A DNA stretch of 64,000 nucleotides from Lentzea tibetensis. GTDB lineage: Bacteria > Actinomycetota > Actinomycetes > Mycobacteriales > Pseudonocardiaceae. Made by a program: the position numbers and the translations under genes. Positions 9,197 through 63,953 of the stretch are shown here, one piece after another. Within the stretch, counting starts at the first letter, position 1. Every line of letters starts with the position of its first letter. The notes beneath the pieces are model-generated. The model had not been told where the DNA came from. It did not search any database and was given only the letters and a program-made list of their open reading frames with translations. The stretch covers positions 106,845 through 170,844 of the forward strand of contig NZ_VOBR01000019.1 of the NCBI RefSeq assembly GCF_007845675.1, given 5' to 3'.

Positions 9197-9205
9197 CGCG
9201 TCCAC

Positions 9206-9258
9206 TTGATGAGGGGAGCTTTCATCAAGCTGAGGTTGATGAAAGCTCCCCTCATCAA
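9206..9258. repeat. Palindromic repeat element, copy 1
   Basis: Two perfect 23-bp inverted arms (9206-9228 and 9236-9258) flank a 7-nt spacer GCTGAGG. Each arm begins TTGATGA and ends TCATCAA. The element lies between convergent genes and could form a bidirectional terminator hairpin. A related copy with the same spacer sits at 10275-10339. Confidence 0.9.
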
Positions 9259-9270
9259 GGTTGGGCAGGC

Positions 9271-36506: not shown

Positions 36507-39500
36507 TCACGCCGGGGTGACGGGGCTCACGGGAGTCCCCGCAAGCGACTCCAGGAACTTCTGGCACCAGTCCAGCAGCTCTTGATCACGCAGCTGCGGT
36601 GCGCCCATTCGGCCGCCAGCCGCTCCTTCGGTCGGCCTAGGCACGGTCACGGTGCCGACCGCCGCCTTGTAGACCGCCTTCGGGAACAACCTGCGCAGGC
36701 GCACCATCTGCGACTCGCGCAGCTCCAGCTTCCCGAACCGGATGTTCTGCCCCATCGTGATGACCTCGGTGACGCCGTGCGCGCGGCACGCGTGCCGGAA
36801 CCGGGCCACGCCCAGCAGCCGTTCGACCGGCTCCGGCGGCGTGCCGTAGCGGTCCTTCAGCTCGTCCCACACGGACTGGAGCGCACCGGCGTCCGGCGCG
36901 GCCGCGATCTTGCGGTACGCCTCGAGCCGCAGCCGTTCACCCGGCACGTACTCGTGCGGGATGTGCGCGTCGATCGGCAGATCGACGCGGACCTCGGCCA
37001 TCTCGTCCTCGGCGTCCGACTCGGCGCCGGCGTGCCTGCGGAACGCCTCGACGGCCTCGCCGACCAGCCGCACGTACAGGTCGAAGCCGACGCCCGCGAT
37101 GTGCCCGGACTGCTCGGCGCCCAGGATGTTGCCCGCGCCGCGGATCTCCAGGTCCTTCATCGCGACGGCCATGCCCGCGCCCAGCTCGGTGTTCTGCGCG
37201 ATCGTCGCGAGCCGGTCGTGCGCGTGCTCGGTGAGCGGGGCCTCCGGCGGGTACAGGAAGTACGCGTACCCGCGCTCGCGGCCGCGGCCGACGCGGCCGC
37301 GCAGCTGGTGCAGCTGGGCGAGGCCGAGCAGGTCGCCGCGTTCGACGATCAGCGTGTTCGCGTTCGAGATGTCCAGTCCGGTCTCGACGATCGTCGTGCA
37401 GACCAGCACGTCGTACTCGCGTTCCCAGAAGCCCTGGATGAGGTGCTCGAGCTTGTCCTCGTTCATCTGCCCGTGCCCGGTGACGACGCGGGCCTCCGGC
37501 ACGAGCTCGCGGATGCGCTTCGCGGCCTTCTCGATCGTCGAGACCCTGTTGTGCACGTAGAAGACCTGGCCGTCGCGCATCAGCTCGCGGCGGATCGCGG
37601 CGCCGACCTGCCGGTCGTCGTACCCGCCGACGTAGGTGAGGATCGGGTGCCGTTCCTCGGGCGGGGTGAGGATCGTGGACATCTCGCGGATGCCCGCGAG
37701 CGACATCTCCAGCGTGCGCGGGATCGGCGTCGCGGACATGGTGAGCACGTCGACGTGCGTGCGGAGCGCCTTGATGTGCTCCTTGTGCTCCACGCCGAAG
37801 CGCTGCTCCTCGTCCACGATCACGAGGCCGAGATCCTTGTACCGCACCGTTTTCTGCAGCAGCCGGTGCGTGCCGATGACGATGTCGACCGCGCCGTCGG
37901 CGAGCCCGGCGATCACCTGCTCGGACTCACCGGGGTCGGTGAACCTGCTGAGCCCCTTGACGTTCACCGGGAACGCGCGCATGCGTTCGGTGAACGTGTT
38001 GAGGTGCTGCTGCGCGAGCAGCGTCGTCGGCACGAGCACGGTGACCTGCTTGCCGTCCTGCACCGCCTTGAACGCCGCGCGGACCGCGATCTCCGTCTTG
38101 CCGTAGCCGACGTCACCGCAGATGACGCGGTCCATCGGCACGGACCGCTCCATGTCCGCCTTGACCTCGTCGATGGCGGCCATCTGGTCCTGCGTCTCGG
38201 TGAACGGGAACGCGTCTTCCAGCTCGCGCTGCCACGGGCTGTCCAGCGCGAACGCGTGGCCGGGCGCGCTCTGCCGCGCCGCGTAGAGCTGAACCAGCTC
38301 GGCCGCGATCTGCTTGACCGCCTTGCGCGCCTTGGACTTCGTGTTCTTCCAGTCGCTGCCGCCGAGCTTGTTCAACGTCGGCAGCTCGCCGCCTACGTAC
38401 CTGCTGACCTCGTCGAGCTGGTCGGTCGGCACGAACAACCGGTCGCCCGGCTGGCCGCGCTTGCTGCTGGCGTATTCGAGAACGAGGTACTCGCGCGTCG
38501 CACCGGCGACCGTGCGCTGCACCATCTCGACGTACTTGCCGATGCCGTGCTGCTCGTGCACGACGAAGTCGCCCGCCCTGAGCGCCAGCGGGTCCACCGC
38601 GTTGCGCCGCTTCGACGGCATCCGCCGCATGTCCTTTGTGGACGTACCACCGCGACCGCCGGTGAGGTCGGTCTCGGTGAGCACCACGAGCGCGAGGTCC
38701 GGGATGACGAACCCGTCCTCCAGCGCACCGCGCGCGACGGTGACCAGGCCGCCCTGCGGCGGGTCGACGAGCCCCTTGTCCGCCAGCGTCGCGGGCACGT
38801 CGGCCTCCGCGAGCTGCTCCACCGCGCGCTGCGCCGTACCGGCACCGGGCACGACGAGCACCGCGGCGCCACCGGTCGCGGTGTGCGCGCGCAGGTCCGC
38901 GAACGCCCGGTCGATGTCGCCCTGGTAGGCCTCGACGGGCTTGTAGTCGAGCCGGACGACGTCGCCGGCCTCGGTGGTGAGCTGGCTGAGCGTCCACCAC
39001 GGACGGTTCTTCTCCCGCGCGGACTCGGCGACCTCGGCGAGGCTCCGGTACGCGGACGCGCCGAGGTCGATCGGCGCCTTGCCGCCACCGGCCGCGGCCA
39101 TCCACGAGGCCTCGAGGAACTCCTGCCCGGTGCGCACCAGGTCGTGCGCACGCGTGCGGATCTTCTCCGGGTCGGCGAGCAGCACGTGCGTGCCCGCGGG
39201 CACGACGTCCGTGAGCAGCTCCAGCGCACCGGGGCAGAGCGCGGGGATCAGCGCCTCCATGCCCTCCGACGGGATGCCGCTCGCGATCTTGTCGAGCATC
39301 TCGACGAGGTGCGCGTCCGACTCGTGTTCGAGCGCCAGCTCACGGGCCCGGTCCTTGACCTGCTCGGTGAGCAGCAGCTCGCGGCACGGCGGCGCGACGA
39401 ACTCGTCGACCTGCTCGGGCAGCGACCGCTGGTCGGCGACCGCGAACGGCCGGATCTCGCTGACCTCGTCACCCCAGAACTCGACGCGCAGCGGGTGCTC

Positions 39501-55584: not shown

Positions 55585-57351
<1,767 letters not shown>

Positions 57352-57393
57352 CAAAACCTCACGACTAGACGAAACTGCCAGCCTGAAGGCTAC

Positions 57394-58584
57394 CTAGAAG
57401 GGCCAAAGCCCCTGCTCACCCGTCTCCAGAAGCCCGATCGCCCGGAACGCGGACTCCGAGAGCCCGTCGTAGCAGTACCTGTTCGGCACGCTGACCGACG
57501 CCGGGCCGGACCGGCCGAGGCTCCAGACGTGCAGCGGCACGGACCTGGGCACCGCCCGGTGCAGCGGGCCGTCGATGTCCTGCTCCCCGGTGACGACCAC
57601 GACCCGGTCGTGCCGACGGAACCACTTGCGGATGACTCGCACCACGTCGTCACGGCGCAGGAACCCGCCGCCGCGTCGCCACCGCACGATCTGCGCGTGC
57701 TCGCAGTTGCTCGCCAGCAGGTCAGCGCCCCGCTCGAACCCGGCCGCGGTGTCGATCAGCACGAGGGTGTGGCCGGGCACCCGCGGCACGGAACGGCCGG
57801 CGGGCGCCCGCACGTCGCCCAGTCCGGCCTGCTCGAGCTCGGGGAGCGAACGCAGCAGCTGGCGGTCGGTCATCGTCGGCAGCAGGACCTCCCACTCCGC
57901 CGCGGTGAGCTGCCGCTTCAGCCAGCCGTGCACCGAGACCCAGGTGATGCCCCCGTCCGCCACGGCCGCGGCGTCGAGCCGACGCGAGCGGACGGGCACC
58001 GCGGACAACGCCGCGCGAGCCCGCACGACCGCCAGCTCGGCCGGGATCTCGGCGTTGCGGCGGTACCTGCGGTCGACGGCGTAGGAGAACAACGCGGCCT
58101 GGTGGGCGTCGACCGGAGCCGGGTGCACGCGCGCGAGCACGTCGCCGAACCGGATGCTGAGTGAGGAGCCGTCGTGGGCGAGCAGCGACCGCTCGGTGTA
58201 GAGGCGGCGGACGGCGTCGGCGACCCCGCGCTTCAACGGTTTCGGCAGGGTGCGTCCGTGCCAGTGGTTCCAGTACGCCAGCAGCCAGCCCGGCTCGTCG
58301 GCCTGGCGCAGCACGGAGTCGACGACCTGCCGGGACAGACCGTGCTGACCCGCGGCACGCCGGGCAGCGACGAACTCGGCCGCACCGATGAACGCGCTGG
58401 ACACCAGGTCCGCCTCGTGCCGCACCCAGCGCAACAGCCGGGCCGTCCACTCCGGATCGTCGACGGCGCACCGGCGCACCAGCTCGACGTAACGGGCGAG
58501 GTGGGCGGCGTTGTACACGGGGTCGTCGCTGACGAGGTGCGACGCGGCGATCAGGAACAGCTCGGTCTTGGTCGATCTGCCCAC
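57394..58584 (-). CDS. TROVE domain protein (Ro60/Rsr-like RNA-binding protein)
   Basis: The 396-residue protein carries TROVE-type helical repeats (SDDPVYNAAHLARYVELVRRC, RLLRWVRHEADLVSSAFIGA) and a vWA-like C-terminal half (VLIDTAAGF, VVVVTGEQD, NRYCYDGLSESAFRAIGLL). Ro60/Rsr proteins form a ring that binds Y RNAs and misfolded RNA and help exoribonucleases. It is shorter than typical Ro60 (about 530 residues), and the DxSxS metal site is degenerate (DTAAG). GTG 58584 has GAGGGGG nearby. A candidate Y RNA lies immediately upstream. Confidence 0.8.
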   Translation of the reverse strand: MGRSTKTELFLIAASHLVSDDPVYNAAHLARYVELVRRCAVDDPEWTARLLRWVRHEADLVSSAFIGAAEFVAARRAAGQHGLSRQVVDSVLRQADEPGWLLAYWNHWHGRTLPKPLKRGVADAVRRLYTERSLLAHDGSSLSIRFGDVLARVHPAPVDAHQAALFSYAVDRRYRRNAEIPAELAVVRARAALSAVPVRSRRLDAAAVADGGITWVSVHGWLKRQLTAAEWEVLLPTMTDRQLLRSLPELEQAGLGDVRAPAGRSVPRVPGHTLVLIDTAAGFERGADLLASNCEHAQIVRWRRGGGFLRRDDVVRVIRKWFRRHDRVVVVTGEQDIDGPLHRAVPRSVPLHVWSLGRSGPASVSVPNRYCYDGLSESAFRAIGLLETGEQGLWPF

Positions 58585-58607
58585 GTTCGCCCCCTCACAG
58601 CAAAAGA

Positions 58608-58723
58608 CCACACGTGCCCCGAGATCGGAGTTGGCTCTCGGCCGGACGGGGTTTACCGACCCGCCCCGCGCCACTGACCAAGCCCGCGGAGACCCGCGAG
58701 ACCGCGCACCGGGGCACGTGTGG
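58608..58723 (-). ncRNA. Candidate Y RNA upstream of the TROVE gene
   Basis: The ends 58608-58621 and 58710-58723 are perfectly complementary over 14 bp (CCACACGTGCCCCG with CGGGGCACGTGTGG) and enclose 88 nt, the size and closed-stem shape of bacterial Y RNAs. Inside, a CGCGG-GTCT-CCGCG hairpin and a GGGGCGGG...AACCCCG stem can form. On the minus strand the RNA ends in TCTTTTGC just before the TROVE ribosome-binding site. A -10-like TACAGT lies at 58746-58751. Known Y RNAs are encoded next to rsr. No Y RNA consensus was identified, so this is structural inference. Confidence 0.5.
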
Positions 58724-58780
58724 AGCTTCCGGAGAAGCCGGGAGAACTGTAGATCGGCGGATTCGACTGCCGCAGCCGGA

Positions 58781-59749
58781 TCAAGCGTGCACCTCGGGCG
58801 GAATGGGACGCGGCGCCTCCTCGGTCGAGATGACCTTCGCACCGGGCACCGGCCCGGACGCGACGCGCACCGTCCGGCACACACCCGCTCCGGCCAGCTC
58901 GGCGGCCACGCGCACCGCGGCGTCGCTGTCCGTGCAGAGGAACGCGCACGTGGGCCCGGAGCCGGACACGATGCCCGCCAGCGCACCCGCGCTCACGCCC
59001 GCGCGCAGCGTGCGGCGCAGGTTCGGGCGCAGCGACACGGCGGCCGCCTGGAGGTCGTTGCCGAGCAGCAGGGCGAGCTGGCGCGGGTCGCCGGACGACA
59101 GGCCCTCCAGCACCGCCTCGACCTCGCCGACGCGCGGCGGGTCGCCCTCGCGGCGCAGCCGGTCCAGCTCGTCGAAGACGTCCGGCGTCGACAGGCCGCG
59201 CCGGTCGAACGCGAGCACCCAGTGGAACTGGTGTCGGGCCAGCACGGGCACGATCCGCTCGCCGCGGCCGGTGCCGAGCGCGGTGCCGCCGTACAGCGCG
59301 AACGGCACGTCCGCGCCGAGCTTCGCGGCCAGCCCGGCCAGCTCGTCACGGCTGATCTCCAGCCGCCACAACGCGGCCAGACCGACGAGCGTGGCGGCGG
59401 CGTCCGCGCTGCCGCCCGCCATGCCGCCCGCGACCGGGATGGCCTTGCGGATCACGACCCGCACCTTCGGGTCTTCCGGGTCCTTGCCGACGTGCGCGGC
59501 CAGCACCCGGACCGCGCGCCAGGCGAGGTTGGAGGCACCGGTGGGCACCGAGTCGGCGCCCTCGCCGTGCACCTCCACTCCAGGCTCGTCGGCGACCGCG
59601 ACTGTCACCTCGTCCACCAGCGACAACGCTTGGAAGATGGTGACCAGGTCGTGGTAGCCGTCCTTGCGCACGTCGCCGACAGCCAGGTGCAGGTTGACCT
59701 TGGCCGGGACGCGGACCGTGACAGGGGGTGGGACTACAGCGAGCACCAC
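58781..59749 (-). CDS. ispE: 4-diphosphocytidyl-2-C-methyl-D-erythritol kinase
   Basis: This GHMP kinase phosphorylates CDP-ME in the MEP pathway to isoprenoids. The 322-residue protein has [20 protein letters not shown], the ATP-binding GHMP motif [33 protein letters not shown] and the C-terminal [13 protein letters not shown] 59749 is the start. In mycobacteria ispE follows ksgA directly; here metNIQ lies between. Confidence 0.95.
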
Positions 59750-59802: not shown

Positions 59803-60603
59803 TCATACGGCGATGACGGAACCGGCGAAGGTCGACTTGATGTAGTCCTTCACCTGAGGCGACCCGAGCAGCTCGGCGAGCTTGCGGATCCGCTCGTCAC
59901 CCTTGAGCTCGGCCCTGGTGACCAGGCCGTTCGCGTTCGGGTTGCCCTCGGCCTCCTCCAGCGCGAGCGCGTCGGTGGCCGGCTTGAGCTGGGCGTCGAT
60001 CGCGTAGTTGCCGTTGATCACCGACGCGTCGGTGTCCTCCAGCGACCGCGGCAGCTGCGCGGCTTCGAGCGTGACGAACTGCAGGTTCTTCGGATTGTCC
60101 GAAACGTCCCGAACGGACACGTCCGCACCGGACTTGCCGAGCTTGATCAGACCGTTGGCCTCCAGCAGCCGCAGCCCGCGCGCCTCGTTCGTGGCGTCGT
60201 TGGCCAGGCCGACCTTCGCGCCGGACGGCAGGTCGCTCAACGACTTGTGCTTCTTGGAGTAGACGCCGAGCGGTTCGATGTGGACCGGCGCGATCCACTC
60301 GACCTGCGCGCCGCTCTGGCCCTTGAACGTCTCCAGGTACGGCACGGTCTGGAAGTAGTTGGCGTCGAGCGAACCGTCGACCAGCGCGGTGTTGGGCTGG
60401 ACGTAGTCGGTGAACTCGACGACCTCGATCTTGAGGCCCTTCTCGGCGGCGAGGTTCTCCGCGACGTAGCGCAGGATCTGCGCGTGCGGGACGGGCGAGA
60501 CGCCGACCTTCAGCGCGTCGGTCGACGAGGCGGTCGAGCCACCCGCGGAGCAGGCCGTGGACAACAAGAGGGCAGCCGAAATCAGGGCAGCACGAATACG
60601 CAT
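59803..60603 (-). CDS. metQ: Methionine ABC transporter substrate-binding lipoprotein (NlpA family)
   Basis: The 266-residue lipoprotein (lipobox LLSTAC, Cys18) has the NlpA features VGVSPVPHAQILRYV, FTDYVQPNTALVDGSLDANYFQTVPYLE, EPLGVYSKKHKSLSDLP and NDATNEARGLRLLEANGLI. It binds D- or L-methionine. Ribosome-binding site AAGGAA is 4-5 nt before ATG 60603. It is the last gene of metNIQ. Confidence 0.93.
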   Translation of the reverse strand: MRIRAALISAALLLSTACSAGGSTASSTDALKVGVSPVPHAQILRYVAENLAAEKGLKIEVVEFTDYVQPNTALVDGSLDANYFQTVPYLETFKGQSGAQVEWIAPVHIEPLGVYSKKHKSLSDLPSGAKVGLANDATNEARGLRLLEANGLIKLGKSGADVSVRDVSDNPKNLQFVTLEAAQLPRSLEDTDASVINGNYAIDAQLKPATDALALEEAEGNPNANGLVTRAELKGDERIRKLAELLGSPQVKDYIKSTFAGSVIAV

Positions 60604-60620: not shown

Positions 60621-61304
60621 TTAGACAGAAGCGTGCCGGCGTCGGTCGGACGCACGAGCGGCACGGGTGAAGCCGAACTGGATGACGGTGGTCAGCACCG
60701 CGAGCCACGCGACGGTGCTCCACAGGAGGCGGGCGTTGAACCGCTGGTAGCCCTCGCGGATGGCGAGGTCGCCGAGTCCGCCGCCACCGATCACACCCGC
60801 CATCGCGGAGTACCCGATCAGCGCGATCACGGTCACGCCGATCGCGTTGATCAGCGCGGGCAGCGACTCGCGGATCAGCACGCTGCGCACGATCCGCACC
60901 GTCGACGCACCGGTCGTGACGGCCGCTTCGACGACCGACACGTGCACCTCGGACAGGATGTTCTGCACGAGCCGCCCGACGAACGGGATTGCGCCGACGG
61001 ACAGCGGCACGATCACCGCGCTGGTGCCGATCGACGCGCCGACGACGAGCCGGGTGACCGACATCAGCGCGACGAGCAGCACGATGAACGGCATCGAGCG
61101 GCCGAGGTCCGTGACGAAGCTGAGCACCCGGTGCAGGTTCGCCTGCGGCCGCAACCCACCTGGCGAGGTGAGCTGCAGCCACACGCCGACCGGAATGCCG
61201 AACAGGGTTGCGATCAGGGTGGCGACGCCGACCATGTACAGCGTCTCGCCGGTGGCCTCGACGAGCCGGTTGAGCACGTCGGACCAGGGTGTCGCAGACC
61301 TCAC
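60621..61304 (-). CDS. metI: Methionine ABC transporter permease
   Basis: The 227-residue permease has five TM helices, including MVGVATLIATLFGIPVG and IPFVGRLVQNILSEV, and the EAA-like VEAAVTTGASTVRIVRSVLI motif that contacts the ATPase. GTG 61304 overlaps the metN stop (GTGA). It is followed by metQ 17 nt downstream. Confidence 0.93.
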   Translation of the reverse strand: MRSATPWSDVLNRLVEATGETLYMVGVATLIATLFGIPVGVWLQLTSPGGLRPQANLHRVLSFVTDLGRSMPFIVLLVALMSVTRLVVGASIGTSAVIVPLSVGAIPFVGRLVQNILSEVHVSVVEAAVTTGASTVRIVRSVLIRESLPALINAIGVTVIALIGYSAMAGVIGGGGLGDLAIREGYQRFNARLLWSTVAWLAVLTTVIQFGFTRAARASDRRRHASV

Positions 61305-62299
61305 GCAGCTACTCCCTGCGGACCCTTCAGCGTCCGGCGCACGACGCCACCCGCCTCGGAGATCCACTCGAGCGCCGAGTCGGCCCGCTCACCGGTGATG
61401 CCGAGGCGGAACCGCGCGACCGGCGTCTCGGCGAGCCGGGTGAGCCCGCCACCGAGCAGGTTCACCTCGACGCCGAACCGGTGCGACGCCTCGGGAAGCA
61501 GCGCGCCGACGGCAGCGAACCCGACGAGCACGACGTCCGCGACGCGGTCGAAGTTGCTCTCGTTCACCGGGTTCAGGTCGACCGCGGGCAGCAACGCGGA
61601 AGCGGTGCGGCTGTTCGAGTCGCCGATCAGGTCGAGCAGCTTGCCGTTCTCGACGACCCGCCCCTCTTCGAGCACCGCGACGTCGTCGCAGATCTTCCGC
61701 ACCACAGCCATGTCGTGCGTGACCACGAGAACAGTGACACCCAGCTCAGCACGGGCCCGGTCGAGCACCGTCAACACAGACCCGGTCGTCTCGGGGTCGA
61801 GCGCGGACGTCGGCTCGTCGGCGAGCAGCACCGACGGCCCGGCGGCGAGCGCACGCGCCACGGCGATCCGCTGCCGCTGCCCACCGGACAGCTGGTCGGG
61901 GTAACTACCGGCCTTGTCGGTGAGCCCGACGAGGTCGAGCAATTCACCAACCCGGCTGCGCCGCTGCGGTCCGGGCACGCCGGCCGACTCCAGCGGCAAC
62001 GCGATGTTGCCGGCGGCGGTCCGCTGCCGCAGCAACGAATCCCCTTGCGGCACAACACCGATCTGCCGCCGAGCGTTGCGCAGGGCAGTACCGCCGAGCG
62101 CGGTCAGGTCGGTCCCGTCCACCCGGATGGCACCGCTGTCCGGCCGCTCGAGCAACGCGACGCACCGAGCGAGCGTGGACTTGCCGGCACCGCTGGGTCC
62201 GACGACCCCGAGCACGCTGCCGGACTGGACGTCGAGGCTGACGCCGTTCAGGACAGGAATGCCCTGGAAGGACTTGGTGAGGTTCTCAACTGTGATCAC
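61301..62299 (-). CDS. metN: Methionine ABC transporter ATP-binding protein
   Basis: The 332-residue ATPase has Walker A GPSGAGKST, signature [15 protein letters not shown], Walker B VLLADEPTSALD and a C-terminal NIL-like domain (about 260-332, GITGERADSALEWISEAGG), which in MetN binds methionine and inhibits uptake. GTG 62299 has GGAG 7 nt upstream. It is the first gene of the operon and is preceded by a SAM riboswitch and a leader peptide. Confidence 0.94.
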   Translation of the reverse strand: MITVENLTKSFQGIPVLNGVSLDVQSGSVLGVVGPSGAGKSTLARCVALLERPDSGAIRVDGTDLTALGGTALRNARRQIGVVPQGDSLLRQRTAAGNIALPLESAGVPGPQRRSRVGELLDLVGLTDKAGSYPDQLSGGQRQRIAVARALAAGPSVLLADEPTSALDPETTGSVLTVLDRARAELGVTVLVVTHDMAVVRKICDDVAVLEEGRVVENGKLLDLIGDSNSRTASALLPAVDLNPVNESNFDRVADVVLVGFAAVGALLPEASHRFGVEVNLLGGGLTRLAETPVARFRLGITGERADSALEWISEAGGVVRRTLKGPQGVAA

Positions 62300-62328
62300 T
62301 GTTTCGCTCCACGAATGCGCGCGGCACC

Positions 62329-62346
62329 GCACGCCCCAGGGCGTGT
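62329..62346 (-). promoter_or_regulatory. Hairpin between the leader peptide and metN
   Basis: CACGCC and GGCGTG, with flanking G-T pairs, enclose 4 nt, about 30 nt before the metN start. It could be part of an attenuator that responds to translation of the leader peptide. Confidence 0.4.
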
Positions 62347-62495: not shown

Positions 62496-62504
62496 TGTGA
62501 TCCT

Positions 62505-62592
62505 CCATCGCTCCTGGCGGTAGCACCTGCCCACATCGAGTGGGTGGTTGCTGCGACGTCGTAGAGCCAGGTCTCTCAGTCGCTCGGGATGG
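62505..62592 (-). ncRNA. SAM riboswitch (SAM-I/S-box type) of metNIQ
   Basis: On the minus strand the aptamer core is recognisable: GAGCGAC-TGAGAGACC-TGGCTCT-ACGAC-GTCGC followed by AGCAACC, a P3 hairpin CCCAC-TCGA-TGTGGG and GGTGCTACC, closed by P1 CCATC/GATGG. This fits the S-box family that binds S-adenosylmethionine and shuts down methionine uptake genes. P1 ends GATGG, which overlaps GGAGG of the leader-peptide ribosome-binding site. Subclass (SAM-I versus SAM-IV-like) is not certain. Confidence 0.82.
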
Positions 62593-62683
62593 CACTTCGA
62601 AGTGAACCCGACAGGACTAGCCGAACGCAAGCCAAAATTGGGATCGTTCGTCAGATCACACTGTTGGCCGAAGGATCAAGCGC

Positions 62684-63710: not shown

Positions 63711-63717
63711 TGGGGGC

Positions 63718-63833
63718 GGTCTCCGTACGGCGCAGGCGAAGCCCTGCCGCATTTCAGGGTGGGGGTCAAGACGTCTTTTTGTCTTGACCCCCACCCTGAA
63801 ATGTGGCTGCCTCTGGTGCGCCGTACGGAGACC
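63718..63833. repeat. Composite inverted repeat with nested stems
   Basis: Outer arms of 16 bp (GGTCTCCGTACGGCGC with GCGCCGTACGGAGACC, 63718-63733 and 63818-63833) enclose inner perfect arms of 23 bp (63750-63772 and 63781-63803), with an 8-nt loop GTCTTTTT. The short unpaired gaps of 16 and 14 nt differ. The size and structure recall a MITE or a bidirectional terminator. Confidence 0.85.
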
Positions 63834-63953
63834 GACACCACCAAGGCGACCCACTACGGAACCCAGCCCGAGGCCTCCGGTGGTGCCGGGGTCCGGGGCG
63901 GAGCCCAGGCGGGGGCAAGGGGCGGATTCGAGGGATCGTTGCAACACGCATGA

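Follow-up and report, generated by a model that had tools for sequence, protein, structure and literature searches.

Does the long inverted repeat immediately in front of a TROVE (Ro60/Rsr-like) gene of Lentzea tibetensis encode a Y RNA, and if so, of what kind? The window, meaning here the whole stretch of 64,000 nt that was analysed (assembly GCF_007845675.1, contig NZ_VOBR01000019.1, positions 106,845-170,844 of the forward strand), holds this element between two genes of the same direction, and sequence comparison makes it highly probable that the element is a Y RNA encoded, together with a reduced TROVE protein, in a single cassette that lies between ispE and an ABC-F gene. The same comparisons make it very probable that this Y RNA lacks the tRNA-like part that is usually present. 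The closing stem and the asymmetric internal loop (CCGG-UGCG / GAUC-UCGG) are common to the window RNA and to the Y RNAs found before TROVE genes in the family Pseudonocardiaceae. The features concerned are as follows (R1 is a covariance model described below).

58608..58723, minus strand: candidate Y RNA of 116 nt with an outer stem of 14-15 bp (sequence, fold, match to model R1)
58710..58723, minus strand: 5' arm of the closing stem, CCACACGTGCCCCG, 14/14 complementary to 58608-58621
58608..58621, minus strand: 3' arm of the closing stem, CGGGGCACGTGTGG, 14/14 complementary to 58710-58723
58705..58712, minus strand: conserved motif CCGGUGCG, running from the end of the 5' arm into the internal loop on its 5' side; from its sequence the probable Ro60-binding site
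58619..58626, minus strand: conserved motif GAUCUCGG, running from the internal loop on its 3' side into the start of the 3' arm (predicted pairs)
58627..58704, minus strand: inner module, a predicted three-way junction (minimum free energy fold), no tRNA-like domain detected
58602..58607, minus strand: UCUUUU tail after the stem (TCTTTT in the DNA)
57394..58584, minus strand: reduced TROVE (Ro60/Rsr-like) gene of 396 amino acids (aa), GTG start at 58584 (phmmer search of the PDB, predicted fold)

The closing stem and its conservation at TROVE loci

The first-pass annotation had described complementary 14-nt ends enclosing 88 nt directly upstream of the TROVE gene and on its strand, and this is what is found: two perfect arms at 58723-58710 and 58621-58608, lengthened to 15 bp by one added G-U pair, with the end of the stem lying 23 nt before the GTG. 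The T-rich end is likewise present as TCTTTT right behind the stem (58607-58602), a tail only partly retained at the six orthologous loci described below, and of the -10-like box the letters TACAGT can be read at 58751-58746, the promoter scan giving no match there. A Shine-Dalgarno-like GAGGGGG (58590-58596) lies between TCTTTT and the GTG, and each arm contains the palindrome CACGTG. The predicted fold of the element has an energy of -68.5 kcal/mol (z -3.17; 1 of 200 shuffles equally stable), and when the 199-nt intergenic stretch was shuffled 20,000 times by a Markov model, a perfect 14-nt inverted repeat arose only once. Across the 64-kb window about 0.5 such repeats are expected by chance and five further places have one, so that the arms by themselves are insufficient, and it is the place of the element and its conservation that carry the weight. 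The other perfect inverted repeats of at least 14 nt lie at 63717-63834 and 63750-63803 (these two overlap), 9205-9259, 37380-37545 and 55785-55990.

A protein search of 298 Pseudonocardiaceae genomes gave a match in 69, and the upstream regions of 44 distinct TROVE loci, including that of the window, were compared (the 30 best matches, one of them a duplicate, and 15 loci chosen by place). A homologous RNA lies upstream at 38 of these 44 loci, or 37 of 43 without the window: 28 carry an RNA of a long kind recognised by motif position, three more (L002, L015, L039) were added by the covariance model, and the window and six orthologous loci have a short kind. Two further loci (L041, L042) show a similar stem and motif without a model match, and no such RNA was found at the remaining four of the 44 (L023, L040, L044, L045); at L044 and L045 the protein is matched only in part, and the stretch taken as upstream is possibly misplaced. 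The outer stem of the family RNAs ends in CCGG-UGCG / UCGG and carries compensatory changes. In the long class, the gene-proximal RNA comprises a T-arm, acceptor-like stem and D-arm, with predicted C-G and G-U/C pairs beyond the GGUGCGA/GGUGCGC site, and at many of these loci two or three RNAs stand in tandem, one of them of about 70-80 nt and without a T-arm visible by eye.

Some of these loci deserve mention on their own account. Tandem Y RNAs including the kind of about 70-80 nt occur at the full-length TROVE loci L007, L011, L012, L013, L038 and L067, while L039, L041 and L042 are divergent TROVE relatives preceded by RNAs about 110-140 nt long, which have a stem of the same type and no evident T-arm. 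At L113 (genome G230) a three-RNA Y array, matched by R1 at G230:C2:1175446-1175861, has outlived its TROVE gene, now an N-terminal remnant; downstream of the array there is a frame which, by eye, resembles a fusion of an HNH fragment with an HxlR-like regulator.

For the motifs, stems were picked by complementarity alone, which gave a strong stem in 35 of the 44 loci. GGTGCG stands at the inner stem end in 22 of the 35, window included, with GGTGTG in L036 as a 23rd; the 3' arm starts with TCGG in 23 of 35 and with GATCTCGG in 19 of 35. At the other 12 loci the top stem lies elsewhere and has neither motif. Counts of GGTGCG in 32 of 33 rows and GGTGTG in one come from rows that the motif itself had served to select, and so do not count as evidence of conservation.

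Covariation was assessed on 14-nt arms selected by motif position, 26 distinct pairs in all, against 2000 shuffles in which relatedness stays in. Pairing is found in 88.7% of cells, compared with at most 48.1% in slid versions, and 85 cells have changed on both sides and still pair (shuffles: mean 30.8, maximum 54). The 20 long-class pairs alone contribute 42 double changes against a shuffle mean of 14.4, a number reached by 0 of 2000 shuffles. At the seven short-class loci the stem is paired in 96.9% of cells. An earlier count, in which rows had been picked by pairing and the arms of neighbouring RNAs mixed, was biased and was set aside; when the seven orthologous RNAs were aligned with MAFFT (A2), the 5' arm of the window RNA was misplaced, and stems were compared by position instead. 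The question raised at the outset by the first-pass annotation, namely whether the stem is conserved next to TROVE genes, thus has a positive answer, both the stem and its internal motif being kept in the family with compensatory changes.

Homology of the element and the tRNA-like module

The covariance model R1 was built from 22 of the 28 long-class RNAs chosen by position (L012, L025, L026, L027, L028 and L037 being left out), its training set containing neither the window locus nor any short-kind sequence. Its top match in the 64-kb window is 58722-58609 on the minus strand, at 23.2 bits and E of about 2.1e-4 (E-values are rough), a score which counts as significant on the scale of the window or of the intergenic region and, given a higher match elsewhere in the genome (see below), not genome-wide. 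The alignment runs from end to end and skips the core. The plus strand of the element scores 8.8 bits, the second match in the window (13.6 bits) falls over a tRNA-Gln gene, and the other long inverted repeats are absent from the R1 results for the window. The six orthologous 71-nt RNAs score 22.7-31.1 bits.

Sister RNAs at five of eight loci match the YrlA model (RF02553) with E from 2.8e-9 to 7e-5, all below its gathering score; no RF02553 match was obtained at the other three (L002, L035 and L036), of which L035 and L036 carry 71-nt RNAs. With the stem conserved at TROVE loci, its compensatory changes and these matches below cut-off, the proposal that the element is a Y RNA is supported. 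In the window RNA itself the R1 alignment detected no tRNA-like module (T-arm with UUCGANN loop, acceptor-like stem, D-arm), and the similarity of its inner part to the inner parts of 32 other RNAs was not above that of shuffles (72 of 200). Two candidate assignments were rejected on these grounds: membership in YrlA, since RF02553 gave no match at E<=5 in 58500-58850 and R1 skips the module, and a decayed tRNA-like module, suggested by a GCGGG..CCCCG hairpin that by eye resembles a T-arm, in view of the same 72 of 200 shuffles. The suggestion of a divergent form, its inner fold not being matched to a known Y RNA, agrees with both results.

The reduced cassette in Lentzea

The window gene is a TROVE gene by sequence search and predicted fold. 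A phmmer search of the PDB with the protein matches 9l5y/9kop (E 1.6e-8), and for an AlphaFold2 model of 57394-58581 (pLDDT 81.9) the best PDB structure matches are all Ro60/Rsr, the model showing the TROVE arrangement of HEAT repeats and a von Willebrand factor A (vWA)-like domain. No TROVE match was given by Pfam or NCBIfam even at E<=10, the family models falling short of this protein. The MIDAS motif DxSxS is not present in its vWA domain, which reads LIDTAAG where three long-class rows have VDTSYSM, VDRSGSM and VDTSASM. In the same alignment (A1), 44 columns directly before the vWA domain (272-301 and 307-320), present in those three rows, are missing in the window, and the six reduced orthologues lack columns 217-301 and more. 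A GRxxPKPxKRGxxDA region does not vary across the ten aligned rows. The frames are open at all seven cassette loci, with a proportion of nonsynonymous differences (pN) below that of synonymous ones (pS) in 21 of 21 pairs.

The cassette is bordered by two further genes:

58781..59749, minus strand: upstream gene with GHMP kinase domains, which we take to be ispE
55585..57354, minus strand: downstream gene, from its sequence presumably an ABC-F type ATPase

The ispE gene adjoins the cassette at 7 of 7 cassette loci and the ABC-F gene is found in the six orthologous ones. Among the 24 Lentzea genomes in which ispE was placed, seven have the RNA and gene between ispE and ABC-F, and in 15 cassette-free genomes, where RNA and gene are both missing, the two neighbours are 0-170 nt apart. 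Three of the empty slots (L126, L134, L139) contain a long, almost perfect hairpin whose arms resemble GACCGCACGCGGGG; it may be a terminator or a repeat.

Six cassettes consist of a 71-nt RNA and a TROVE protein of 314-334 aa, that of the window of 116 nt and 396 aa, and canonical loci of an RNA of about 150 nt with a tRNA-like core and a protein of about 500 aa or more. A hairpin replaces the core in the two 71-nt RNAs that were folded. The 116-nt form is present in one genome only; from its tree position and sizes it may be an intermediate between the canonical and the 71-nt form, or one in which sequence has been regained.

This pair was the only one found in its own genome (105 contigs, 98.7% complete), where the window gene is the single TROVE match and a canonical Y RNA was found neither by YrlA (best E 0.07) nor by R1. 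YrlA scored above its own cut-off in 0 of the 25 Lentzea genomes searched. In genome G222 a canonical TROVE/Y RNA locus stands beside sdaA; in the stretch beside sdaA of the window genome, rsr, the DedA-like gene and paired RNA motifs were not found. The spaced pattern CCGGTGCG..GATCTCGG occurs at 13 places, that of the window having 15 contiguous outer pairs and the other twelve 4-7. Scanning genome contigs with the window protein alone found no relative, and with an alignment five loci, all Lentzea, while the intergenic region, searched against the DNA of the genus, was matched weakly at many places and showed no second copy. Literature text searches on bacterial Y RNAs, Ro60 and TROVE, judged by title, returned nothing on Y RNAs of Lentzea or Pseudonocardiaceae.

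Interpretation of the pair and alternative explanations

Compared with the full-length TROVE loci of the family, the window shares the outer stem, the loop motifs and the order of RNA then TROVE gene, and differs in that those loci often have two or three RNAs, keep DxSxS in the three compared and occupy another genomic slot. From YrlA it differs in having neither a model match nor a detectable T-arm/D-arm module, although family RNAs sharing its outer stem do match RF02553 below the gathering score. The 3'-side bulge of the window RNA differs from that of human Y RNAs. With vertebrate Y RNAs it has paired ends in common, as well as GGUGCGA/GGUGCGC at the inner end of the outer stem, which may be set beside the conserved site GGUCCGA given for human Y RNAs in PMC11277228; the window RNA is, in contrast, bacterial, its demonstrated sequence likeness is limited to this short motif, and the likeness of its UCUUUU tail to theirs is probably chance. 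A bulged C in the stem, the Ro60 site, is said to persist in bacterial Y RNAs, Rsr is reported to bind their lower stem (PMC4726728), and in Deinococcus the Y RNA is reported to act as a tether between Rsr and PNPase and as a gate for substrates. The window protein differs from that Rsr/Y RNA/PNPase complex (RYPER) in lacking the MIDAS motif and the pre-vWA stretch.

From the likeness to the Ro60 site and the known roles of Y RNAs we infer that TROVE binding is kept, and from the missing tRNA-like module, MIDAS site and pre-vWA stretch that the effector side is lost or changed. The N-terminal HEAT repeats would grip the RNA by its stem and loop on the exterior of the ring, as Ro60 does with vertebrate Y RNAs; the TROVE protein would stabilise the RNA, and the RNA would shield or steer the RNA-binding surface of the protein in structured-RNA decay or quality control. 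The RNA may be excised from an ispE-TROVE transcript or work inside it. A bolder version, to which we give an even chance, is that in Lentzea Ro60 and Y RNA have shrunk together to the binding interface (outer stem and loop with the N-terminal HEAT repeats), losing the tRNA mimic, the metal site and part of the ring and leaving a minimal ribonucleoprotein with a function other than that of a decay scaffold, of which the window would be a surviving intermediate. This co-reduction is the most interesting aspect of the finding: the graded shortening of RNA and protein offers natural truncations in which binding is separated from the functions of the tRNA mimic and of the ring, so that this question could be addressed with no need for designed mutants. 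The finding further suggests that there are Y RNAs lacking a tRNA-like part, invisible to searches based on the T-arm, and since both the YrlA cut-off and Pfam miss the pair, annotation resting on them would overlook it.

A number of results weigh against interpreting the element as a Y RNA. Besides the missing RF02553 match, the promoter and terminator scans gave no match at the element, and its likeness to the human site is a resemblance only (5/7 letters for the GGUGCGC of the window, 6/7 for GGUGCGA). Choosing RNAs by motif position for R1 and for the covariation count builds the motif in. Within the short class, covariation is modest, the seven pairs having 5 double changes against a mean of 1.4 (reached by 23 of 2000 shuffles) and a number of pair types that is not raised, being reached by 1690 of 2000 shuffles. 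The 71-nt forms have TTCTCGG in the 3' loop, with ATCCTCGG where others have GATCTCGG, and five of these six short orthologues are missed by R1 under default filters, being matched only with filters off. In the whole genome the best R1 match (33.7 bits) lies elsewhere; it covers model positions 33-115 only, is found again with an equal score in most Lentzea genomes and presumably represents a tRNA gene. Finally, the protein is under weak constraint, with pN of about 0.3 and pS of about 0.4 between the window and its six orthologues.

Among alternative explanations, one that is compatible with the Y RNA interpretation is that of a cis-acting leader in the 5' region of the TROVE mRNA, bound by the protein to control its own synthesis, which we regard as somewhat unlikely. 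The short distance from stem to start codon would suit it, as would the shared direction of ispE, TROVE and ABC-F genes, the failure of the promoter scan to find a match for the RNA itself, the loss of RNA and gene together from 15 empty slots and, at eight long-class loci, a nearest RNA that by eye stands only about 20-40 nt ahead of the likely ATG; yet the two or three tandem RNAs of many long-class loci would be superfluous for a leader, the Shine-Dalgarno-like site lies outside the stem, and the G230 array remains though its gene is lost except for a remnant. We think it improbable that the cassette is instead a decaying relic, a degenerate copy of a canonical TROVE/Y RNA locus on its way to being lost: seven open frames, pN below pS in every pair, the well-paired stems of the seven loci and the status of the gene as the sole TROVE gene found in its genome do not fit decay, even if the shortening of both RNA and protein, the loss of the MIDAS motif and the weak constraint between the window and the other six do.

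That the inverted repeat is unrelated to TROVE, being a DNA operator (CACGTG), the ends of a mobile element or the terminator of ispE, appears very improbable indeed. Such an origin is favoured by the palindromic nature of CACGTG and the perfect 14-nt repeats at five other places of the window, but the arms co-vary across loci, several of which lack CACGTG, the internal-loop motifs recur on stems chosen by pairing alone, only 1 of 20,000 shuffles gave such a repeat, and R1 does not list the other long repeats. For an intrinsic terminator of ispE the loop is far too long, and the terminator scan found none.

Elsewhere in the window, a SAM riboswitch (RF00162, 55.7 bits) was identified at 62502-62595 on the minus strand. 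It precedes frames at 61301-62332 and 60621-61367 and another ending at 59803, which by eye are methionine-type ABC transporter-like.
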